10,827 bases of DNA from positions 1 through 10,827 of the forward strand of contig JAGQRA010000210.1 of NCBI GenBank assembly GCA_020425885.1, in the 5' to 3' direction. This document shows, one piece after another, positions 1 through 10,460 of the stretch. The DNA comes from Planctomycetota bacterium. Its GTDB lineage: Bacteria > Planctomycetota > UBA1135 > UBA2386. Each line of letters opens with the position of its first letter. The stretch's first letter is position 1. The notes below the pieces were generated by a model. It was not told the origin of the DNA. It saw nothing but the letters and a program-made list of their open reading frames with translations, and ran no database searches. A program made the position numbers and the translations under genes.

Positions 1-180
1 CACCGTCGGCCGTTCGCGAACGTGCAGATCCGGCAGGCCCTCGACTTCGCCCTCGGCGAACGGAACGGCGGTGGCAACGACCTCGCGGCGCGCGAACGGG
101 GTCACGTTCTGCAGCACCAGCGTGCGCTCCTGCGCGAGCAGCGTGCCGACGAACAGCAGGGCCAGGCAGGCGAACCTCAC
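1..180 (-). CDS. N-terminal fragment of a secreted protein (runs off left edge)
   Basis: The reverse strand reads open for 60 codons from a GTG at 180-178 to the window edge. The first 17 residues form a signal peptide: M-R-F, then a hydrophobic run (ACLALLFVGTLL), then A-Q-E, with cleavage likely near LLA/QE. The mature part begins ERTLVLQNVTPFARREVV and continues with TAVPFAEGEVEGLPDL. A pattern of 'xNxTPFxRRExVxxxVPFxxGEV' resembles the N-terminal RIFT-barrel domain of PcRGLX/YetA-like proteins, but this is a memory-based match to a short stretch and is weak. The start is chosen because GTG directly precedes the signal peptide and no in-frame ATG lies nearby. It is transcribed away from the gene at 215, with 34 bp between the two starts, so they probably share a promoter region. 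Export is well supported; function is unknown. Confidence 0.72.
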   Translation of the reverse strand, partial: MRFACLALLFVGTLLAQERTLVLQNVTPFARREVVATAVPFAEGEVEGLPDLHVRERPTV

Positions 181-214
181 AATGGTGTCACCGAGTCGCT
201 ATGGTCTCGGCTCC

Positions 215-2506
215 ATGAGGTGTCCACGGCTTCGCCATCGTGCCCTGCGTGCCTTGCGTGCGCTGTTGGCATCGTGCCTGATCTTCGCCGCGGCGCCCGC
301 GCAGGGGAAGCCGGTCGTCGCCCCCGAGCCCGAGGAGGCCGCCGTGCTCGCGCTCGGCGCCAAGGAACTCGACGCCTATGCGACGCTGTGTTTCAAGAAC
401 GGCTTCCCGAAGCGGGCGCGCGAGGTCTGGTTCGAGGTCATCGGCGAGTACGACGGCGACGACGCCGCCGCGCGCAAGGAGCTCGGTTACATCCGGCACG
501 GCACGGTGTGGCAGCTCGATGCCGCGTTCGGCTATCCGGAGCAGGACGCGCCCGACGCCGGCGCCGCGAAGATGCTGCAGAAGCGCTTCGACGGCGTCTG
601 CAAGAAGCTCGGCGATGCGCACCGCGCCCTCGCCGACCAGCTCCGCGCCGCCGGCAAGGAGGCCCGCGCCGGCTACCACGTGCAGCGCGCGCTGCGCTTC
701 CTGCCCGCGGACTCCAAGGTCGTCGCGGCCTCGGGTCTGCAGCAGTACGAGGGCATCACCGGCAACGCCGTGGATCTCGAGATCCTGCGTCGGTCGCGGG
801 TGATGGATCGCGAGATCACGAGCCAGACCGAGCAGAGCTACGAGGTCGCGGCCACCGACGCGCGGCAGCCGGCGATCGACAAGGGCGGCATGCCCTACAC
901 GGGGCAGAAGAGCCCGCACTACACGGTCTACGGCGACTGGGAGCCGGACGTGCTGGCGCAGGCCGCGACCTGGGCCGAACGCGCCCTGGCGTTCTGCGAG
1001 GTGGCCTTCGCCGATCACCTGCAGCCCGTGTCGCGCAGCCGCCAGTACCGCACCTTCTGCTTCGTGCGGACCAAGGCGACCTTCGTCAGGCTGGTCGAGG
1101 CCAACGTCTCGACGATCGGCCGGTCGCAGGCCGAGTTCATCGTCGAGCATGCCAAGGCGACGTTGATCGGCGACATGCATACCGCCGGCGTCGAGGAGAC
1201 CGAGACGGTCTACGACCTGGCGGTGCGCTGGGTCGTCCAGGACTACGTCGGCCTCGGCTCGGACGCGATGAACGAGGGCATCGGCCACGCCGTGGTCGGG
1301 ATGTTCTTCGGCCGCAACCTCGTGTTCTCGGTCGGGCAGGAGAAGCAGCAGCACACCGTCGCCTCGCGCACCGTGGCCAAGCTGCTGTTGCCCGACATGG
1401 ACACCTGGATGGAACTAGCGACCGAGATCGCCTGGTCGAAGACGAGCACACCGGCGGCGCGGCTGCCGCTGCTCAAGGCCGCGAGCTTCCCGACCGACGG
1501 CCGCATCAAGTCCTGGTCGTTCTGCGACTATCTGCTGCGCCGCGACCCGAAGCTGCTGCGGCTGCTCGACAAGACCGGGGCCAAGGCCCGCAACGACAGC
1601 GACGTCGAGGTCGCGTTCCAGCAGGCCGCCGAGCTGCCGCTGTATCAGCTCGAAGAGGGCTGGCGGCGGTTCTGGACCGAGGACTCGGCGATCAAACGGG
1701 CGATCCGCGACAAGAGCACGCCGCTCGAGTCCGCCAGCAAGGAGGCGCCGAAGTGGCTCGCCGCCTTCAACAAGGCGCGCGTCGAGAACGGCGGCAAGGA
1801 GGTCGGCTGGTCGGCGCAGCTGTCGGTCGACTGCAAGGAGCACGTCGACTACCTCAAGGCCAACAAGGACCAGCGCGGGCCCGACAAGGAGCACTCGCAG
1901 CTGCCGGGCAAACCCGGGTTCTCGAATTCGGGCCGTTCGTTCGCACAGACCGCCGTGGTCTGGACCGAGGGCAAGGATCCGAAGAAGGCGATGGCCGAGT
2001 GGATGCTGATCCCGGGCTATCGTGACGCCATCCTCAATCGCAACATCGACACCGTCGGCATCTATGCCGAACGCGGCATCGTGGTCCTCGATGGCCGGCG
2101 CGGTCGTGAGGCGTCGCAGTCGGCCATGTCGCTCACCTATCCGAGCGCCGACCTCAAGGGTGGACGCAAGAAGGAGCCCGTGCCGTCGGCGGTCGATGTC
2201 GACCTGCTCGGCCCCGAGGTGCAGAAGCTGCTCGGCCTCAACAAGCGCGGCAAGCAGAAGCAGATCGGGCTGCCGCTCACGGCCCACTTCTACTTCAGCC
2301 GGGCCGATGACGTGAAGTGCGAGGTGACGTCACGCGGGCAGCCGGTCGAGGGCTGGTTGGTGCGCGGCAGCGGTTCGTGCGGCCGCACCTCGGTGCCCGG
2401 GCTGTGGGTGTTCTACCCGGCCGAGCCGCTCGACAAGGGCGTCGACATGAACGCCGAGTGGACCTGGCCTGATGGCGGCCACAAGGTCACGTTCACCACC
2501 AACTGA
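215..2506 (+). CDS. Exported pseudo-peptidase (gluzincin-like core) with CAP-like domain, paralogue 1
   Basis: The protein is 763 aa from the ATG at 215. That start gives an arginine-rich n-region, a hydrophobic stretch and APAQG, a signal peptide of about 29 residues; an in-frame ATG at 182 would add 11 residues ahead of it. Residues ~35-190 are helical with TPR-like repeats. From ~235 ('PHYTVYGDW') the layout follows the peptidase-MA/DUF1570 type: a 'hYxVxg' strand, then a helix, then the place where HExxH should be, which reads RWVVQ (338-342). Eleven residues later comes NEGIGH (353-358), matching the gluzincin third-ligand motif 'WxNEGxA'. The zinc histidines are missing, so proteolysis is unlikely. 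Residues ~513-626 resemble a CAP domain ('AFNKARVENGG', 'AMAEWMLIPGYRDAILN', 'VGIY'), with Tyr replacing the usual His in 'GHR'. Residues ~642-763 look like the beta-rich domain often following CAP domains ('YPAEPLDKG...VTFTT'). It is a clear paralogue of the next gene. Fold assignment is inference from motifs; the biological role is unknown. Confidence 0.85.
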   Translation: MRCPRLRHRALRALRALLASCLIFAAAPAQGKPVVAPEPEEAAVLALGAKELDAYATLCFKNGFPKRAREVWFEVIGEYDGDDAAARKELGYIRHGTVWQLDAAFGYPEQDAPDAGAAKMLQKRFDGVCKKLGDAHRALADQLRAAGKEARAGYHVQRALRFLPADSKVVAASGLQQYEGITGNAVDLEILRRSRVMDREITSQTEQSYEVAATDARQPAIDKGGMPYTGQKSPHYTVYGDWEPDVLAQAATWAERALAFCEVAFADHLQPVSRSRQYRTFCFVRTKATFVRLVEANVSTIGRSQAEFIVEHAKATLIGDMHTAGVEETETVYDLAVRWVVQDYVGLGSDAMNEGIGHAVVGMFFGRNLVFSVGQEKQQHTVASRTVAKLLLPDMDTWMELATEIAWSKTSTPAARLPLLKAASFPTDGRIKSWSFCDYLLRRDPKLLRLLDKTGAKARNDSDVEVAFQQAAELPLYQLEEGWRRFWTEDSAIKRAIRDKSTPLESASKEAPKWLAAFNKARVENGGKEVGWSAQLSVDCKEHVDYLKANKDQRGPDKEHSQLPGKPGFSNSGRSFAQTAVVWTEGKDPKKAMAEWMLIPGYRDAILNRNIDTVGIYAERGIVVLDGRRGREASQSAMSLTYPSADLKGGRKKEPVPSAVDVDLLGPEVQKLLGLNKRGKQKQIGLPLTAHFYFSRADDVKCEVTSRGQPVEGWLVRGSGSCGRTSVPGLWVFYPAEPLDKGVDMNAEWTWPDGGHKVTFTTN

Positions 2507-2556: not shown

Positions 2557-4854
2557 ATGTTCCGGATCTCGACGTGGCTGCTCGCCGCCACCCTGACCCT
2601 GGCCTCGATCGCCGCCCAGGACCCCACGGCGGCGCGCAAGCGGGAGAGCAAGCTCACCGCGGAGGCCATCACGACGTTGCACCAGATCGCCGACGCCCTC
2701 GAGGCGCAACGCCAGCACGGCGCCGCGCTGGCGTTGCGCAAGGAGATCCTGCTCGAGTACTCCGAGGAGGACGCGAAGGCGCGCGACAAGGTCGGCTTCA
2801 CCAAGGTCGGCGATCTCTGGCAGCCCGACCCGGGCAAGCTCGTCATCGAGAAGGACCTGAGCGGCGACAAGAAGGAGCTGAAGAAGATCGAGAAGCTCAT
2901 CGACAAGTTCCGCAAGGACCAGATCAGCGAGCATCGGGCGGTCGCCGAGCTGTGGACCAAGGCCTTGGACACCGCGCGTGCGAGTCATCACTGGCGGCGC
3001 GTGCTGGCGCTGGACCCCGATGCCAAGGATGCGGTGACGGCGTTGTCGTTGGCGCGATTCCAGGGCTTCCGCGGCAGCGACGAGGAACTCCACATGCTGC
3101 GCCGCGCCTGGGCCATCCGCGGCGCCGTCGAGTGGCTCAATCGCCATGAGTTCCCGGTCGAGCCGATCGAGGGCGGCACGCACCCGTTGCTGGAGAAGGC
3201 CGGCATCCCGCACCAGGGCTACCGCAGCCAGAACTTCGAGATCTGGGGCACCCTGCCGGGCGACCAGCTGCCGAAGGTGGCGCAGAACTGCGAGCGCGCG
3301 GTGCTGATGTGCCGTACGATCTTCGGCACCAGCGAGGGGCACGTGTTCGCGCCCGGTCCGCGGCGTGGCCTGGTGTTGGTCGGCGACGAGGCCAGCTATC
3401 ACAAGGTGCTCGATCAATGCGCCGACCAGTTCGACGCGGCGCGGCTCGAGTTCCTGAAGAACACCGTCGACCTCGCCTTCCTCACGGTCGGCGAGCAGCA
3501 GGTGCGGTTCATCAAGACCAACGGCTCGTACGACGAGGCGTTCGACCAGAGCGTCCGCGCCGTCGTCCAGGACATCACCGGCTGCTTCACCGAAGGCCTG
3601 TGGGAAGGCCTCGGCCATGCCGGCTGCGGCGCCCTGTTCGGCAAGACGATCACGTTCCTGCTCGAGCAGCAGACCGCCCGCACGGTGGCGTCGTGGGCCA
3701 AGGAGCTGCTCGTGCCCGACATCAAGGTCTGGATGGAGATCGCGGCCAAGTCGGCCTGGTCGAAGAGCGACACCAAGACCAGCGAGCTGGTGCTGATCAG
3801 CGCGGCGCGGTTCACCACCGAGCAGCGCGTCAAGGCCTGGGCGATCTGCGACTACCTGTTCCATTGGCGACCGGAGCTGATCTGGCAGCTCGACCAGAGC
3901 CAGACCGAGGACATCCGGACGCCGCCCGAGGTCGAGGCCGAATTCGAACGCCGCACCGGCATCGCGCTGCCCAGGATCGACGCCGACTGGCGCGCGTTCT
4001 GGTCGCGGCAGGAGGCGCTGCGCACGGCGATGGCGGCCGACCCGCTCGGCGATGAGAAGGATCGCTATCGCGAGGCCCGCCAGCAGGCGCGCGAACTGGT
4101 CGATGCAGTCAACGAGCTGCGCGCCGCCGCGCAACGCGGCCCGGTCGGGTTCTACTACGCCGAGGACGTCGACACCCAGGCGGCGTTGGCCTATGCGATC
4201 AAGCTCGACAAGGCCGAGCGCGATCAGCTGAAGAAACCGAAGCAGAAGATCCCGTTGCCGCCGGTGCCCGAGGCGATCGGGCGCAGCGTGTTGTTCTCAC
4301 GCGCCGAGTCGCCGGCCGCGGCCGTGCTGGGCTGGTGGGCCGATCCGGCCTGGCGCGACACCATGCTGCACCCGGGTCGGGGCCTGCTCGGCGCCAACCG
4401 CAATTCGCAGTGCTGCGTGCTCGACCTGACCGAGCCGGTGCAGGCGCCGACCAGCGGGCTGCCGCAGACCTGGCCGAGCCAAGGTGAGGTCGGGGTGCCC
4501 GGCAGTGCCCGCGTCGCCGATCTCGGCCCGCGGGCGCAGGCTGCGCTGCTGGCCGCCGGCAAGAAGCCCGACGACCTCGTGGCGATGCCGTGGACGCTGC
4601 ACTTCCTGCGCGAGATCACCGCCGCCGATCTCGCCGCCGTCGAAGCCCGCGTCTACTACGACGGCTATCGCACCGACTGCGTGCTGGTGAGCTACCAGGA
4701 TGGCGAACCCGACGACGCCGCGGCCGGCTGCTTCGCCTGCATCTGTCTGGAAGCGCCGGTGTCCGGCGCCGCCGTCGAGGTCGAGTGGACCATACCCGCG
4801 AACATGCTCGCCGAGGACGAGAGGTTCAGGCCGGTCCGATTCATCGTGAAGTAG
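2557..4854 (+). CDS. Exported pseudo-peptidase (gluzincin-like core) with CAP-like domain, paralogue 2
   Basis: The protein is 765 aa, with a clean signal peptide MFRISTWLLAATLTLASIAA followed by QDP. It starts 50 bp after the previous stop, so the two genes are probably co-transcribed; no clear Shine-Dalgarno site is visible. It shares the whole architecture of the upstream gene. Residues ~35-165 are charged and helical, with a TPR-like end ('HHWRRVLALDPDAKDAV'). The gluzincin-like core starts near 'NFEIWG' (226-231), has RAVVQ (334-338) where HExxH is expected, and WEGLGH (349-354) exactly 11 residues later. Then come blocks shared with the paralogue: 'RTVAS', 'LLVPDIKVWMEIA', 'AWSKS', 'AWAICDYLF' and 'WRAFWS'. 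Residues ~512-624 match the CAP-like region ('LVDAVNELRAA', 'AVLGWWADPAWRDTML', 'CCVLDL'), with Trp replacing the 'GHR' histidine. The C-terminal part is beta-rich, with cysteines in 'GCFACICLE'. It is likely a non-catalytic exported or cell-surface protein; function is unknown. Confidence 0.87.
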   Translation: MFRISTWLLAATLTLASIAAQDPTAARKRESKLTAEAITTLHQIADALEAQRQHGAALALRKEILLEYSEEDAKARDKVGFTKVGDLWQPDPGKLVIEKDLSGDKKELKKIEKLIDKFRKDQISEHRAVAELWTKALDTARASHHWRRVLALDPDAKDAVTALSLARFQGFRGSDEELHMLRRAWAIRGAVEWLNRHEFPVEPIEGGTHPLLEKAGIPHQGYRSQNFEIWGTLPGDQLPKVAQNCERAVLMCRTIFGTSEGHVFAPGPRRGLVLVGDEASYHKVLDQCADQFDAARLEFLKNTVDLAFLTVGEQQVRFIKTNGSYDEAFDQSVRAVVQDITGCFTEGLWEGLGHAGCGALFGKTITFLLEQQTARTVASWAKELLVPDIKVWMEIAAKSAWSKSDTKTSELVLISAARFTTEQRVKAWAICDYLFHWRPELIWQLDQSQTEDIRTPPEVEAEFERRTGIALPRIDADWRAFWSRQEALRTAMAADPLGDEKDRYREARQQARELVDAVNELRAAAQRGPVGFYYAEDVDTQAALAYAIKLDKAERDQLKKPKQKIPLPPVPEAIGRSVLFSRAESPAAAVLGWWADPAWRDTMLHPGRGLLGANRNSQCCVLDLTEPVQAPTSGLPQTWPSQGEVGVPGSARVADLGPRAQAALLAAGKKPDDLVAMPWTLHFLREITAADLAAVEARVYYDGYRTDCVLVSYQDGEPDDAAAGCFACICLEAPVSGAAVEVEWTIPANMLAEDERFRPVRFIVK

Positions 4855-4870: not shown

Positions 4871-5662
4871 TCACTCGTAGGCCAGCCGCCGCACGCCGTC
4901 CCAGACCTCGGTGTGGCCCTTCCCCGGCAGTTCGTGCAGCGTCGCGTTGTCGCCGATCAACTGCCGCAGCTGCCGCGGCGCCGCGATCGGCAGCGCGTCG
5001 TCGGCGGTGCCGTGGACGATGACGACGGGACATTCGACGGTCGCGGCGGCGGCGGTCGCATCGAAGACGTCGTCGGCCAGGAAGCGGCCGAACGGTCCGT
5101 GACGCATGATGTCGATGCGCGGTCCGGCGGCGGCGAGCACGAGGCGGGCCGGGGCCTGTGCGCGCCGGGTCAGCTCGGCGGTCAACTGCACGGCCAGCAC
5201 CGAGCCGAGCGAGTAGCCGAGCACCTCGGTTCGTTCCGGCGCGGCACCGAGCGCGCGCAGTCGGTCCCATTGCGGCAGCAGATCGGCGAGCAGATGTTCC
5301 GGTGTCGGCACGCCGGTCGATGCCTCGAAGCCGCGATAGGCCCAGAAGGCGACGCCGATCTCGTCGGGCAGGGCGCGTTCGAGCTCGGCCTGGAAGCCCG
5401 GCAGCAGCGCCGTCGAGTTGCCGGGCACGAACAGGACCCAGCGGCCGGCCGGATCGACCGGCGGGCGGACGAGGCCGACGAGGGTGACGCCGGGCTCGAC
5501 CTCGAGTCGGTCGATCTGCCAACGCCCGGTCGCGAGCGCTGCGATGTCGGCCTCGCTCTTCTGATCGATCCAGTAGGCGAAGCGATGCAACCTGGCGGCG
5601 CCGAACCAGGCCATGACGACGGCGAGCAACAGGCAGATGGCGATCCACATGCGGGTCTTCAC
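4871..5662 (-). CDS. Membrane-anchored alpha/beta hydrolase
   Basis: The protein is 263 aa from a GTG at 5662; an ATG at 5650 would give 259 aa. Residues ~5-22 (MWIAICLLLAVVMAWFG) follow Lys2/Arg4 and form an uncleaved signal anchor or one membrane helix, so the domain probably faces the periplasm. The alpha/beta-hydrolase fold is shown by 'WVLFVPGNS' (75-83, oxyanion-hole strand), the nucleophile elbow GYSLGS with Ser151, 'VVIVHGTADDALP' with the acid at Asp221 or Asp222, and 'LPGKGHTE' with His250. The spacing fits the YfhR/ABHD13-like group of serine hydrolases, whose substrates are mostly unknown. Its stop is 16 bp from the stop of the convergent gene to its left, and it diverges from the NRPS gene across 136 bp. 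It could be an esterase or amidase. It is not an obvious type II thioesterase, since those are cytosolic and lack an anchor. Confidence 0.88.
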   Translation of the reverse strand: MKTRMWIAICLLLAVVMAWFGAARLHRFAYWIDQKSEADIAALATGRWQIDRLEVEPGVTLVGLVRPPVDPAGRWVLFVPGNSTALLPGFQAELERALPDEIGVAFWAYRGFEASTGVPTPEHLLADLLPQWDRLRALGAAPERTEVLGYSLGSVLAVQLTAELTRRAQAPARLVLAAAGPRIDIMRHGPFGRFLADDVFDATAAAATVECPVVIVHGTADDALPIAAPRQLRQLIGDNATLHELPGKGHTEVWDGVRRLAYE

Positions 5663-5798: not shown

Positions 5799-8700
5799 AT
5801 GTCGCAAACGCTCGCCGCGGTCTTCGTTGGTTCCGACACTTTGCTGCTGCAGTGTCTCGAGGTCTGGCGCGAGCGCGGCCACCGCGTCGTCGCGGTCGCG
5901 ACCGACACCGACAAGGTCCGCCGCCATTGTGCCGAGCTCGGTCTGCGCTGCCTCGATGCCAGCGCCGACTTCGCCGCTCAACTGCAAGGCGAGGAGATCG
6001 ATCTGCTGTTCGCCATCACCTGGCTGTCGATGCTGCCCGAATCGGCGCTGCGCCTGCCGCGCCACTTCGCCGTCAACTTCCACGACGGCCCGCTGCCGCG
6101 CTACGCCGGGCTCAACGCGACCTGCTGGGCGATCCACAACGGCGAGCGCGAGCACGCCGTGACCTGGCACGTGATCGAGGCCGAGGCCGACACCGGCGCC
6201 ATCCTGTCGCAGCAGAGCTTCGCGATCGCGCCCGACGACACCGCGTTCACGCTCAATGCCCGCTGTTTCGAGGCCGGGTTGGCAACGTTCGAGAAGTTGA
6301 CCGGGCAGCTCATGGACAACGCGGTGACGCCGGTGCCACAGGACCTGCAACGGCGCAGCTACTTCGGTCGGCGGGCGCGGCCCGCTGCCATGGCGATGCT
6401 CGACTTCGGCCAGCCGGCGGCGGCGGTGGCGCGGGTCGTGCGGGCCTTCGATCATGGCGGCTACCAGAATCCGATCGCCATCGCCAAGGTCCGGACTTCG
6501 CGCGGCGTGATCGTGCCCGGCGGGGCCGAGGTCGTGGCCGGTCACGGCGCCGCGGCCGGCACCATCACCGCCGTCGACGACGAGTCCGTGCGCATCGCCT
6601 GCGCCGACGGCGAGGTCCGCTTGACGCGGCTGCGCTGCCTGCAGAACCACGAACTCGACGCCGCCGGGCTGCAGCGATTCGGCGTCGTCACCGGCGGCAA
6701 GGTGTCGTTGCTCGACGCCGATCATGCGGCTCTACTCACGGCGCTCGGGCGCGCCGCGGCGGCCGATGAGCCCCAGTGGCTCGACGTGCTGCGCTCGCAG
6801 CCGCCGTTGCCGGTGCCCGGCGGCAGTCCGGCGGCGGCCGCCGCCGCCGAGGCGAAGTTGGCCGTCGATCTCGGCGCGGCGGTGACCAGCGCTGCTGCGG
6901 CCGCCGCGATCACCGCCTGCTTCCTGGCCCGCGACGGCGCGCTGCCCGCATTCGCGATCGGCTTGCGGACCGCAGCGTCGGCAGCGCTGGTCGATGCCGC
7001 GCGCGATCTCGCCGTGGCCTTCGCGCCGGCCGTGCTCGCCATCGACGTCGCGCAGCCGGTCGGCGAGGCGCAGCGTCTGGCCGGATCGATGCTCGAGGCA
7101 GCGGCGGCGCGCGGCCCATTGCTGCGCGAGCTGTTGGTCCGCCGCGCCGACGTGCTGCCGCCCTCGACCGTGCTCGAACCGCCGGTCCGGTTCTGCCTCG
7201 AGGCCGAGCCGGGCGCGGTCGCACCGGGCAGCCTCGTCTTCGTCTTCGCCGAAGGCGGCGCACTGCAGCTGCGCTACGACGGCAACGCGTTGCCGGTCGC
7301 GGCGGCCGAGGCGTTGGCGCGCCGGCTGCAGGTCTTCGCCCGCGCCGCTGCGGCCGCGCCGCAGACGTCGCTCGCCACGGTGCCGGTGCTCGATGCCGTC
7401 GAACTGCAGCAGGTGCTGCACGACTGGAACGACGCCGCCGAGCCGGCGCCGAGCGAACCGTGCGTGCACCGGCAGTTCGCGGCCCAGGCGGCGCGCACGC
7501 CCGATCAGGTCGCGCTGCGCCACGGCGACGAGGAACTCGGCTACGGCGCCCTGATGCAGCGGGTCGCGCGTCTCGCCGGTTGGCTGCGCGGCCGCGGCGT
7601 CGATCGCGGCGATCGCGTCGGCATCTGCACCGGGCGCGGTCTCGACATGGTCACGGCCGTGCTGGCGACGCTGCGCTGCGGCGCGGCCTACGTGCCGCTC
7701 GATCCGGCCTATCCGCGGGAACGGCTGCAGTTCATGGCCGACGACGCCGAGCTGCGCGCCCTGATCGTCGATCCGCGCACCAAGTCCCTGGCGCCGAGCG
7801 CGGCCTGCGCCCACATCGACCTCGAGGCCGATCGCGAGGCCATCGCCGCGGCCGCACCGATGCTCGACGATCACGCCGTCGGCGACGATCTCGCCTACGT
7901 CATCTACACCTCGGGTTCGACCGGGCACCCCAAGGGTGTCATGGTGCGGCATCGCAACGTCACCAACTTCTTCGCCGGTATGGACCGCGTGCTCGGCACG
8001 TGCGCCGGCGCCGCCAATGCCGGCGTCTGGCTCGCGGTGACCAGCCTGTCGTTCGACATCTCGGTGCTCGAGCTGTTGTGGACGCTGTGCCGCGGCCTCA
8101 CCGTGGTCGTCCACGACGGCGAAGGTCGGGCGGCGCAGCGCACGGCGCAGAAGCTGCAGGCCAGCACGCGCCCGATCACGTTCAGCATGTTCTACTTCGC
8201 CAGCGACGAGGGCGAACATGCCGAGGACAAGTACCGGCTGCTGCTCGACGGCGCGCGCTTCGCCGACGAACACGGCTTCGAGGCGGTGTGGACGCCCGAG
8301 CGCCACTTCCATGCCTTCGGCGGTCTCTATCCCAACCCGTCGGTGGCCAGCGCCGCGATCGCCGCCATCACCAGGAACGTCGGCATCCGTGCGGGCTCGT
8401 GCGTGCTGCCGCTGCACAGCCCGATCCGAATCGCCGAGGAATGGTCGCTGGTCGACAACCTGTCGCACGGCCGCGTCGGCATCGCCTTCGCCGCCGGCTG
8501 GCACGGCCGCGACTTCGTGCTGCGGCCGGAGACGTTCGCCGATCGCAAGAACGTGATGTTCGCCGGCATCGAGCAGGTCAAGGCATTGTGGCGCGGCGAG
8601 GCCATCGAGTTCCCCGGCCACGACGGCGCGCCAATCCCGATCCGGACCATGCCGCGGCCGATCCAGAACGAGCTGCCGGTCTGGATCACGGTCGCCGGCA

Positions 8701-10460
8701 ATCCGGAGACCTACCGTCAGGCCGGCGAGATCGGCGCCCACGTGCTGACCCACCTGCTCGGCCAGAGCCTCGAGGAGCTGGCGCAGAAGCTCGACATCTA
8801 CCGCCAGGCCTGGCGCACCGCCGGGCATCCCGGCGAGGGCAAGGTCACGCTGATGCTGCACACCTTCGTCGGCGACGACGACGAGCGCGTGCGCGAGATC
8901 GTGCGCGAGCCGATGAAGGGCTACCTCAAGAGCAGCATCGATCTGGTCAAGCAGGCGGCGTGGTCGTTCCCGGCGTTCAAGAACCGCGTCGACAAACCCG
9001 GCGAGATGGACGCGCTGCTCAACGGCGGCCTGACGCCGGCCGACTTCGAGGCCCTGCTCGAGTTCTCGTTCGAGCGCTACTACCGCACCAGCGGCCTGTT
9101 CGGCACGCCCGAGAGCTGCGTCCAGATCGTCGATCGGCTGCGCGGCATGCAGGTCGACGAGATCGCCTGCCTGGTCGACTTCGGCGTGCCGACCGACCTG
9201 GTGATGGCCAACCTGCCGAAGCTGCTCGAGCTGAAGCGCCGCTGCGACGCGATCACGGCGGCCGCGCGCGTGACGGAAGCCACGGCCGTCGAGGCGCCGC
9301 GGCCGCCCGAGTCGATTTCTTCGCTGCTGCAGCGGCATGGCGTCACGCACCTGCAATGCACGCCGTCGATGGCGGCGATGTTGATGCTCGATCCGGCGGC
9401 GGTCTCGGCGCTGCGCGGCGTACAGCACATGCTGGTCGGCGGCGAGGCGTTGCCGGGGGCGCTGGCGGCGTCGCTGCGGGAACTGGTGCCGAACCTGCAC
9501 GACGTCTACGGGCCGACCGAGACCACGGTCTGGTCGACGGTGCAGCCGGTCGGCGACGACGATCCGGTGCCGATCGGCCGGCCGCTCGCGAACCAGCGCG
9601 TCTACGTGCTCGATCCGCGGCAGCAACCGGTCGCGATCGGGCATGCGGGTGAGCTGTGGATCGGCGGCGACGGCGTCACCGCCGGCTACTTCCGCCGACC
9701 CGAGCTGACGCAGGAGCGGTTCGTGCCCGATCCGTTCTGCGGCAACAGCAACGGCAACTGGCCGGCGCTGATGTATCGCACCGGGGATCTCGCGCGCTGG
9801 CGCCACGACGGCGTGCTCGAGTATCTCGGCCGCACCGATCACCAGGTCAAGGTGCGCGGCTACCGCATCGAACTCGGTGAGATCGAGGCCGCCCTGAGCC
9901 AGCATCCCGGCGTTCGCGAGTGCGTGGTCACGGCGAGCAGCGAAGGCACCGAGACCAGGCTGTGCGCCTACTTCGTACCGCGGCAACCGGCGCCGAAGGC
10001 CGACGACCTGCGCGCCCACCTGCGCACCTCGTTGCCCGAGTTCATGATGCCGAGCTGGTTCGTCGCCCTCGCCGATCTGCCGCGGACGCCGAACCTGAAG
10101 ATCGATCGCCAGGCGCTGCCGTCACCCGAGGCCGCGGGCGCGGGCCGGCGCCGCACCATGGCCACGGCGCAGAACGAGACCGAGGACGCGATCCTCGCGA
10201 TCTGGCGGCAGGCGCTGGCCACCGACGAGGTCGGCGTCGAGGACAACTTCTTCGACTCGGGCGGCCACAGCATCCTCGCCGTCAAGGTGCACCGCGAGAT
10301 CGTGCAGCGACTCGGCGTCGAACTGCAGATCACGGATCTGTTCCGCTTCACGACCGTGCGCGCGCTGGCCAGGCATCTGCAGGCCGATGCCAAGGCGCCG
10401 AGTGCGGCGCAGGTCGCGGCGGAGCGGGCCAAGGCGAGGCGATTGACGCGGCGGCGGTAG
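5799..10460 (+). CDS. Single-module NRPS: formyltransferase - partial C - adenylation (Gly-like) with inserted luciferase-like monooxygenase - PCP
   Basis: The protein is 1553 aa, with no signal peptide, so cytosolic. Residues 1-200 are a methionyl-tRNA-formyltransferase-type domain that transfers formyl from 10-formyl-THF; its catalytic set is visible as Asn93/His95 ('VNFHDGPLPRYAG') and Asp131 ('EADTGAIL'). Residues ~203-282 match the formyltransferase C-terminal barrel. Residues ~345-540 resemble the C-terminal half of a condensation domain, without HHxxxDG. The adenylation domain starts at ~555, with A2 'LRCGAAYVPLD', A3 'YTSGSTGHPKG' and A4 'FDIS' (752-755). It is interrupted by a luciferase-like FMN monooxygenase at ~795-1148 ('WTPERHFHAFGG', 'LVDNLSHGRVGIAFAAGW'), of the MupA/Atu3671 type. 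It resumes at ~1165 with A5 'VYGPTE', A6, A7 'YRTGDLARW', A8 'GRTDHQVKVRGYRIELGEIE' and the A10 lysine K1434. The carrier domain has 'FFDSGGHSI', phosphopantetheine site Ser1491. Pocket residues suggest glycine. There is no thioesterase. The start is fixed because the first beta strand of the formyltransferase begins right after Met1. Function is predicted as formylation and oxygenation of carrier-bound glycine. Confidence 0.95.
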   Translation: MSQTLAAVFVGSDTLLLQCLEVWRERGHRVVAVATDTDKVRRHCAELGLRCLDASADFAAQLQGEEIDLLFAITWLSMLPESALRLPRHFAVNFHDGPLPRYAGLNATCWAIHNGEREHAVTWHVIEAEADTGAILSQQSFAIAPDDTAFTLNARCFEAGLATFEKLTGQLMDNAVTPVPQDLQRRSYFGRRARPAAMAMLDFGQPAAAVARVVRAFDHGGYQNPIAIAKVRTSRGVIVPGGAEVVAGHGAAAGTITAVDDESVRIACADGEVRLTRLRCLQNHELDAAGLQRFGVVTGGKVSLLDADHAALLTALGRAAAADEPQWLDVLRSQPPLPVPGGSPAAAAAAEAKLAVDLGAAVTSAAAAAAITACFLARDGALPAFAIGLRTAASAALVDAARDLAVAFAPAVLAIDVAQPVGEAQRLAGSMLEAAAARGPLLRELLVRRADVLPPSTVLEPPVRFCLEAEPGAVAPGSLVFVFAEGGALQLRYDGNALPVAAAEALARRLQVFARAAAAAPQTSLATVPVLDAVELQQVLHDWNDAAEPAPSEPCVHRQFAAQAARTPDQVALRHGDEELGYGALMQRVARLAGWLRGRGVDRGDRVGICTGRGLDMVTAVLATLRCGAAYVPLDPAYPRERLQFMADDAELRALIVDPRTKSLAPSAACAHIDLEADREAIAAAAPMLDDHAVGDDLAYVIYTSGSTGHPKGVMVRHRNVTNFFAGMDRVLGTCAGAANAGVWLAVTSLSFDISVLELLWTLCRGLTVVVHDGEGRAAQRTAQKLQASTRPITFSMFYFASDEGEHAEDKYRLLLDGARFADEHGFEAVWTPERHFHAFGGLYPNPSVASAAIAAITRNVGIRAGSCVLPLHSPIRIAEEWSLVDNLSHGRVGIAFAAGWHGRDFVLRPETFADRKNVMFAGIEQVKALWRGEAIEFPGHDGAPIPIRTMPRPIQNELPVWITVAGNPETYRQAGEIGAHVLTHLLGQSLEELAQKLDIYRQAWRTAGHPGEGKVTLMLHTFVGDDDERVREIVREPMKGYLKSSIDLVKQAAWSFPAFKNRVDKPGEMDALLNGGLTPADFEALLEFSFERYYRTSGLFGTPESCVQIVDRLRGMQVDEIACLVDFGVPTDLVMANLPKLLELKRRCDAITAAARVTEATAVEAPRPPESISSLLQRHGVTHLQCTPSMAAMLMLDPAAVSALRGVQHMLVGGEALPGALAASLRELVPNLHDVYGPTETTVWSTVQPVGDDDPVPIGRPLANQRVYVLDPRQQPVAIGHAGELWIGGDGVTAGYFRRPELTQERFVPDPFCGNSNGNWPALMYRTGDLARWRHDGVLEYLGRTDHQVKVRGYRIELGEIEAALSQHPGVRECVVTASSEGTETRLCAYFVPRQPAPKADDLRAHLRTSLPEFMMPSWFVALADLPRTPNLKIDRQALPSPEAAGAGRRRTMATAQNETEDAILAIWRQALATDEVGVEDNFFDSGGHSILAVKVHREIVQRLGVELQITDLFRFTTVRALARHLQADAKAPSAAQVAAERAKARRLTRRR
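8181..9242 (+). other. Luciferase-like monooxygenase domain inserted between adenylation motifs A4 and A5
   Basis: This is residues ~795-1148 of the NRPS. The A4 aspartate (Asp753) and the first pocket residue after the insert (Gln1186) are 433 residues apart, compared with about 43 in GrsA, so roughly 390 residues are inserted. The insert reads as a complete TIM-barrel flavin monooxygenase: 'TFSMFYFASDEGE' (first strand), 'FEAVWTPERHFHAFGG' (substrate/flavin-site region), 'AGSCVLPLHSPIRIAEEW', 'LPVWITVAGNPETYRQAG' and a C-terminal helical part ending near 'LLELKRRCD'. The adenylation sequence resumes in frame on both sides. Boundaries are approximate to about 10 residues. Confidence 0.9.

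Follow-up and report, generated by a model that had tools for sequence, protein, structure and literature searches.

A candidate N-formylglycine loading protein with an embedded luciferase-like monooxygenase in a planctomycete, and the polyketide synthase that usually accompanies it in relatives

We analysed a stretch of 10,827 nucleotides from a Planctomycetota bacterium (assembly GCA_020425885.1, contig JAGQRA010000210.1; the whole stretch is called "the window" hereafter), in which the open reading frame at 5799-10460 (+) encodes a protein of 1553 residues. Its domains are a formyltransferase (F), half of a condensation (C) domain, a glycine-type adenylation (A) domain into which a luciferase-like monooxygenase (LLM) is inserted, and a carrier (T) domain, i.e., F - half C - A(LLM) - T. 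In relatives this module usually lies near a one-module polyketide synthase (PKS), and often among genes of the surface-polysaccharide type. The reading we favour, which we regard as evenly poised, is that the protein is the N-formylglycine loading protein of a two-protein nonribosomal peptide synthetase (NRPS)-PKS line, with the LLM acting beside the carrier thioester and the finished unit ending up on surface polysaccharide in many relatives. More specifically, and with less than even confidence, we propose that the product of this line, in several phyla, is an oxygenated, N-formylated amino acid of about four carbons that serves to decorate surface polysaccharide as an acyl group rather than as a free metabolite, and that the window's lineage has kept both genes but moved them apart. 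Each part is known, but a protein of the F - half C - A(Gly, LLM) - T layout paired with a one-module PKS inside polysaccharide loci, as a hybrid NRPS-PKS, was not found in the literature searched (open-licence PMC papers). If the proposal is true, assembly-line chemistry would serve polysaccharide tailoring, NRPS and PKS having mostly been studied as makers of free metabolites, and a recurring "orphan NRPS-PKS" call would receive a name.

Architecture of the protein

The gene and its parts, all on the forward strand, are as follows:

5799..10460 (+), whole gene, F - half C - A(LLM) - T, 1553 residues (open reading frame; Pfam/NCBIfam, profiles made in this study)
5799..6707 (+), formyltransferase, catalytic and C-terminal domain, residues 1-303 (Pfam, alignment, fold match)
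6756..7433 (+), condensation-domain remnant, residues 320-545, back part only, without HHxxxDG (profile matches, motif check)
7476..8168 (+), adenylation domain part 1, to beyond motif A4 (FDISVLEL), with code residues D, I and L (Pfam, alignment, code reading)
8181..9233 (+), MupA/Atu3671-family LLM between A4 and A5, residues 795-1145 (TIGR04020, E 3e-154; PuwE 6ket, E 5e-117)
9279..10097 (+), adenylation domain part 2 and C-terminal subdomain, with code residues Q, L, G, V, V and W (Pfam, NCBIfam, alignment, code reading)
10185..10379 (+), carrier (T) domain, phosphopantetheine serine S1491 at 10269-10271 (Pfam, alignment)
10404..10457 (+), Arg-rich C-terminal tail, residues 1536-1553 (alignment, motif counts)

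An earlier reading of the same DNA from its letters and open reading frames (the sequence-only reading) had described a formyltransferase, a glycine-type A domain, an LLM and a carrier fused in one protein with intact key residues, and Pfam, NCBIfam (25 of 119 matches listed) and the alignment bear this out. N93, H95 and D131 of the formyltransferase, K1434 of the A domain (the A10 lysine, which the alignment places just past the second adenylation stretch) and S1491 of the carrier are invariant in 22 aligned rows. Two points go beyond that reading, namely the half C domain between F and A and the usual PKS partner in relatives. The homologue search scored the 7989 candidates sharing most words and yielded at least 1105 homologues, 120 of which were listed. 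Among the matches listed, homologues of the same length and layout are 51-75% identical and mostly planctomycete where the source is named, and further ones, at ~42-50% identity, include some named Pseudomonadota and Myxococcota.

The Asn-His-Asp residues are the catalytic residues of formyltransferases. The predicted model of residues 1-560 (mean predicted local distance difference test, pLDDT, 92.7) matches the formyltransferases Fmt and ArnA over approximately its first 303 residues, and the strict motif NFHDGxLP is present in 76 of the 83 proteins that carry both F and LLM; these motif counts use crude patterns (the carrier motif, for instance, is scored in 48/83) and are no gauge of lost activity. 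The protein thus combines a formyltransferase fold carrying Asn-His-Asp, fused to A-T, with the lack of a functional C domain upstream of A, of which just the back part is present, as expected for an N-formylating starter module. It is plausible, judging from these sequence features, that the protein formylates the carrier-bound starter residue.

No Pfam match covers residues 320-545 of the window protein, and a C-domain match was precomputed for two of the 120 listed homologues (P0106 and P0114). A profile of the 320-545 region (A6) matches Txo1 and Txo2 in their C domains, the aligned part starting at chain residue 194-198 (E 4e-20 and 5e-20), and one of residues 330-545 matches the C domains of ordinary modules, the near-complete matches beginning ~65-120 residues past HHxxxDG. 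HHxxxDG is itself absent from the first 560 residues of the window protein. Since the remnant consists of the back part only and lacks this motif, the formyltransferase has replaced what would be the catalytic front of a C domain. The fold matches for residues 1-560 covered mainly residues 2-303 and, therefore, the assignment of a half C domain rests on the profiles and not on the fold.

The specificity code of the A domain, read at anchor motifs, is DILQLGVVWK, its K being assigned from K1434 rather than extracted. In a published survey, as excerpted, all four glycine domains found to bear a monooxygenase have the code DILQLGMIWK (PMC12283262), which differs from that of the window at two positions. 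Codes were read for 73 F-type and 8 other LLM-bearing A domains, i.e., 81 of the 99 LLM domains, the rest missing the strict motifs; all 81 begin with DIL and have W at the ninth place and 65 have Q at the fourth, although the motif search was crude and some odd letters are likely misreads. Because the DIL...W code is so close to the published one, glycine is our best guess for the activated substrate. The predicted model of residues 518-1454 (pLDDT 76.8, predicted template modelling score 0.54) was left unused for fold claims.

The LLM, inserted after motif A4, scores 513.2 bits against TIGR04020 (NCBI curated cut-off 244.45) and hence belongs to that family; among solved structures, the PuwE domain 6ket is nearest to it in sequence. 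No other oxygenase or N-hydroxylase domain occurs among the Pfam or listed NCBIfam matches. By alignment and motif counts, the Arg-rich C-terminal tail recurs in many F-A(LLM)-T proteins, not in that of locus L004, and is a possible docking element on the PKS.

The polyketide synthase partner in relatives

Eighty of 585 relatives were taken as genome loci, many of them from Rhodobacterales. In these the F-A(LLM)-T gene is usually found near a PKS of ~2150 residues with the order ketosynthase (KS), acyltransferase (AT), ketoreductase (KR), dehydratase (DH), acyl carrier protein (ACP) and thioesterase (TE), as established by Pfam on two of the PKSs and by profiles made in this study. A KS was found in 53 of the 57 F-bearing loci of at least 20 kb, and KS, KR, DH and TE stand on one frame in 46 of the 57; none of the nine LLM loci without F passes this stricter one-frame test. 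Two loci without a KS call have a ready explanation: in one (L017) the remaining PKS domains lie at the contig end and in the other (L065) the PKS lies 11.3 kb upstream.

The association also holds across genomes. In the planctomycete order of the L065 genome, which is the order of genome G001, 39 of 154 genomes have a match to the module at E 1e-150 or better (28 matching the F region, four with short or cut-off frames and seven with the A(LLM)-T part only) and 50 have a match to the PKS (E 1e-150). The PKS match occurs in 36 of the 39 genomes with the module versus 14 of the 115 without it (Fisher p 3e-20), and the module is present in all 33 genomes whose PKS match was judged full-length, a set picked by hand as matches extending past query residue 1830. 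In 17 genomes a single contig carries both module and PKS, with 47 bases to 11.3 kb between them, and in another 18 the two are found on separate contigs; this linkage table of the 39 genomes leaves out G124, G150, G151 and G152. G150 does have PKS matches, one of them adjoining a second copy of the module (43% identical). Close relatives of the window gene (67-77% identity) are encoded in 21 genomes; the PKS was matched in 18 of these and not in G124, G151 and G152.

The expected catalytic and chain-holding residues are found in 21 aligned partner PKSs, namely the KS Cys with both His, the AT Ser, Tyr and Asn of the KR, His and Asp of the DH, the ACP Ser, and Ser and His of the TE, so that the partner looks intact from its sequence. 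With a single KS whose active site is intact in 21/21 aligned PKSs, the relatives do not show the non-elongating KS0 that follows the hydroxylated ACP in the mupirocin type. To judge from these domains, the partner should add a C2 unit, reduce it, perhaps dehydrate it and then release the product.

Some variants of the pair were also observed. In Aliiroseovarius (L086, 19495-28743) the PKS is fused to a further A domain and peptidyl carrier protein (A-PCP) before the TE, and the unit may there be passed on to one more amino acid. In Paracoccus mutanolyticus (L064) both the PKS and F-A(LLM)-T are split over several frames, and the pair looks decayed or misread.

Gene neighbourhood

At least two surface-polysaccharide-type genes lie close by in 46 of the 57 F loci and a phosphopantetheinyl transferase in 35, versus none of the nine LLM loci without F in either case; the polysaccharide seeds were drawn from the positive loci and the same seeds were applied to the controls. 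Without the Rhodobacterales, polysaccharide genes accompany 11 of 21 F loci, spread over five phyla by their labels, versus 0/9 controls (p 0.011). On plasmids of Aminobacter, Ruegeria, Shinella and Parasedimentitalea the pair lies variously among glycosyltransferase, flippase, sugar transferase, O-antigen ligase and polysaccharide export genes, and in three of these four the phosphopantetheinyl transferase adjoins the module. Aliiroseovarius has the longer PKS-NRPS protein instead, with no glycosyltransferase annotation in the stretch shown, and the record of the Methylobacterium relative is without annotation. Within the Planctomycetota, the L065 module gene is near a priming sugar transferase and WecG (named by Pfam), the PKS of G149 is near glycosyltransferases and WecG, and that of G001 is near glycosyltransferases and a polysaccharide export protein. 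The gene neighbourhood of the relatives hints at a polysaccharide role, which would extend to the window's lineage by analogy only.

The exosortase gene xrtD was observed in the stretch around the locus on two Rhodobacterales plasmids (L082 and L086), and a VPLPA-CTERM gene in L086.

Chemistry of the monooxygenase and proposed pathway

Characterised relatives of the LLM, cited here and below as described in excerpts of the publications, act on carbon. MupA, together with a flavin mononucleotide (FMN) reductase, alpha-hydroxylates an ACP-bound beta-keto thioester, not the beta-hydroxy form (PMC10952193), and the 2-hydroxy group on a 3-amino-2-hydroxy acyl chain has been attributed to the PuwE domain (PMC4219810). 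The monooxygenase (MOx) domains of myxothiazol and melithiazol are reported to hydroxylate the glycine C-alpha, thereby cutting the chain and leaving T-bound glyoxylate (PMC11342130). By these accounts, MupA, PuwE and the myxothiazol-type MOx all target the carbon adjoining the carrier thioester, and by analogy the window LLM would hydroxylate that carbon as well. For the LLMs of calyculin and mandelalide, Baeyer-Villiger-type reactions have been reported (PMC8739492).

Two trees were made from LLM domains picked by hand to thin near copies, one of 62 of the 99 domains and one of 43 rows (42 of the 99 plus PuwE). In the latter, one set (95/93) takes in all 27 F-type rows used, together with L036, L023 and L029. 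L023 has a C domain instead of F and in L029 F was not found; in both, the module is followed by a KS-AT-KR-DH PKS in which the profiles made in this study recognised no TE. Because these two share the set and the PKS with the F-type rows, the LLM and PKS appear to be the constant part and the N-terminal cap the variable one. L036 is labelled "no F" in both trees, yet its contig starts inside the gene, and the F-bearing L006 falls among "no F" rows in the 62-row tree. F-type rows cluster in both trees, although support is weak at many forks and the trees do not decide the chemistry. The sharp question is, therefore, what an LLM inside a glycine A domain targets when F-type and C-type modules share the LLM and the PKS but not the N-cap.

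In the favoured pathway the A domain would adenylate glycine and load it onto the T domain, where F would formylate its nitrogen from 10-formyl-tetrahydrofolate (10-formyl-THF). The N-formylglycine would then be handed to the separate KS-AT-KR-DH-ACP-TE protein for extension by a C2 unit, assumed to come from malonyl. The LLM, supplied with reduced FMN by an outside reductase, would hydroxylate the carbon adjoining the carrier thioester, our first choice of target being, as for MupA, the alpha carbon of the beta-keto-acyl chain made by the PKS. Subsequent reduction by the KR would give a unit of the 4-formamido-2,3-dihydroxybutanoyl type or its dehydrated form, which the TE would free or transfer and which in many relatives would probably be attached to surface polysaccharide. 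We favour action of the LLM after extension over action on glycine.

A second TIGR04020 monooxygenase (L197; 465 bits, 499-residue frame) was encountered at 95416-96456 of contig C2 of G134, ~44 kb from the PKS.

Counter-evidence and alternative explanations

Several observations weigh against the favoured reading. A nearby KS is not special to the F-type, as seven of the nine LLM loci without F also hold one, and two F-bearing loci (L005 and L042) have none within ~10 kb. In the partner PKS the AT extender motif is AHS in 20 of the 21 aligned sequences and GHS in the other, and the Q/H that normally follows the DH Asp is missing. To our knowledge, neither AHS nor GHS is a standard malonyl or methylmalonyl AT motif, so that a malonyl extender is only assumed; dehydration is likewise uncertain because of the DH motif. 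The position of the LLM within the upstream glycine domain, together with the DIL...W code in 81/81, favours action on glycine. Ten of the 21 F loci outside the Rhodobacterales are without a polysaccharide gene, and the polysaccharide link is weakest in the window's own subclade: the PKS there adjoins a Dus family gene in G134 and G132, and a GT87 gene downstream in G134 is the sole polysaccharide-type neighbour seen. The partner has not been seen in the window, which ends with its contig 367 bases 3' of the gene, so that a PKS would lie outside the visible stretch. Of the 18 PKS-bearing genomes in the window's subclade, 17 carry the PKS on a contig other than that of the module, G001 alone having both on the same contig. 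Some contigs of this subclade are short, yet G132, G134 and G138 have module and PKS on contigs of 54-194 kb. The window likely shows no PKS because its lineage has dispersed the two genes, and from its relatives we infer that the PKS is present elsewhere in its genome.

A substantial possibility, although short of an even chance, is that the same two-protein line makes a free, diffusible small molecule and that the polysaccharide genes are mere neighbours. This overlaps the favoured reading in everything except the coat role, and the weights given to the two are thus not exclusive. The F loci without polysaccharide genes outside the Rhodobacterales and the dispersal of both genes in the window's subclade agree with it; the PKS TE, with its intact Ser and His, could simply hydrolyse the product, and the Aliiroseovarius PKS, with its extra A-PCP before the TE, lies in a stretch devoid of glycosyltransferase annotation. 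It leaves unexplained, however, why such a neighbourhood is seen repeatedly in several phyla but in none of the nine LLM loci without F.

Less likely than not, yet a serious rival, is action of the LLM in cis on N-formylglycyl-S-carrier before extension, with C-alpha hydroxylation giving a carbinolamide that is either kept for extension or breaks down into formamide and a glyoxylyl thioester, the latter being the PKS starter; C-alpha hydroxylation with such a breakdown had been the second option of the sequence-only reading. MOx domains in the glycine A domains of myxothiazol and melithiazol are reported to leave T-bound glyoxylate (PMC11342130). The LLM of the window protein, too, sits inside a Gly A domain with the shared code, and the formyl group mimics the N-acyl group of myxothiazol-type substrates. 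However, a TE in cis is absent and the next enzyme in relatives is a PKS rather than a release domain; loss of the nitrogen would make formylation pointless, and L023, where a PKS follows an internal C-A(LLM)-T module, would cut its own chain.

It is improbable that the window's lineage has lost the partner and that the module alone makes N-formylglycine or a hydroxylated form of it. The genes are unlinked in the subclade and the PKS match is missing from 3 of the 21 close genomes (G124, G151 and G152), but it is present in the other 18 and incomplete assemblies could explain the gaps. For the family, a stand-alone single-module product was rejected in view of the PKS partner in relatives, and for the window's lineage it was given low weight. 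The very small one-module NRPS product suggested by the sequence-only reading finds no support, given that almost every relative examined has a PKS alongside the module.

That reading had further proposed a hadacidin-like compound; its glycine loading, starter formylation and LLM inside the A domain stand on sequence grounds, while the hadacidin skeleton does not. Formylation of glycine is plausible, but that this protein alone both N-hydroxylates and N-formylates glycine is highly improbable: the only oxygenase found is the TIGR04020 LLM, whose described relatives oxidise carbon, no N-hydroxylase domain occurs among the Pfam or listed NCBIfam matches, a release domain was not seen, and the module of the relatives is accompanied by a PKS.

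Comparison with known systems

The best full-length PDB match of the window protein is LgrA (E 1e-195), which likewise starts with a formyltransferase joined to an A-T module. The best-scoring matched stretch is LgrA residues 1438-1800, i.e., its second A-T region. LgrA is not known to have an LLM and continues as an NRPS, whereas the window protein has the half C domain between F and A, and its partner in relatives is a PKS.

MupA (mupirocin) and the Ox domain of PuwE (puwainaphycin) are of the same LLM type and have been tied to alpha-hydroxylation of carrier-bound acyl chains; as described in the excerpts, MupA acts in trans and the PuwE domain follows its own PKS module, so that neither sits inside an upstream A domain, unlike the LLM of the window. 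We know of no formyltransferase in the mupirocin and puwainaphycin systems. Atu3671, the other namesake of the family, we take to be FbnE. The flavin monooxygenase FbnE of the Agrobacterium siderophore fabrubactin has been proposed to make an alpha-hydroxycarboxylate, in a siderophore setting (PMC12971057).

The terminal modules of myxothiazol and melithiazol carry a MOx inside a glycine A domain (PMC11342130), and the window protein has its LLM in a domain of that type. By their description, they cleave the chain and are followed by a TE, whereas the window protein is a candidate N-formylating starter without a TE, ending after the T domain, and its F-bearing relatives have a PKS in trans. 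For the calyxamide line of Entotheonella a figure legend lists Fmt, KS, AT, KR and Ox (PMC12858407); this line and the discodermin loading module belong to large multimodular peptides, unlike the system described here, and the term "exopolysaccharide" does not occur in the main text of that paper.

Other genes in the window

Upstream of the module gene, the window encodes two proteins that by eye are apparently exported, at 2-2506 (+) (834 residues, with a CAP domain, PF00188) and 2557-4854 (+) (765 residues); relatives of these lie near the F-A(LLM)-T gene in six and seven of the fetched loci, respectively. Between them and the module gene, and divergent from the latter, 4871-5662 (-) encodes an alpha/beta hydrolase whose N terminus, by eye, is likely a membrane anchor and which has relatives in seven of the fetched loci. 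It was considered as a type II thioesterase and rejected, its Thioesterase match scoring 22.6 bits against the Pfam cut-off of 26.4 and its start resembling a membrane anchor.
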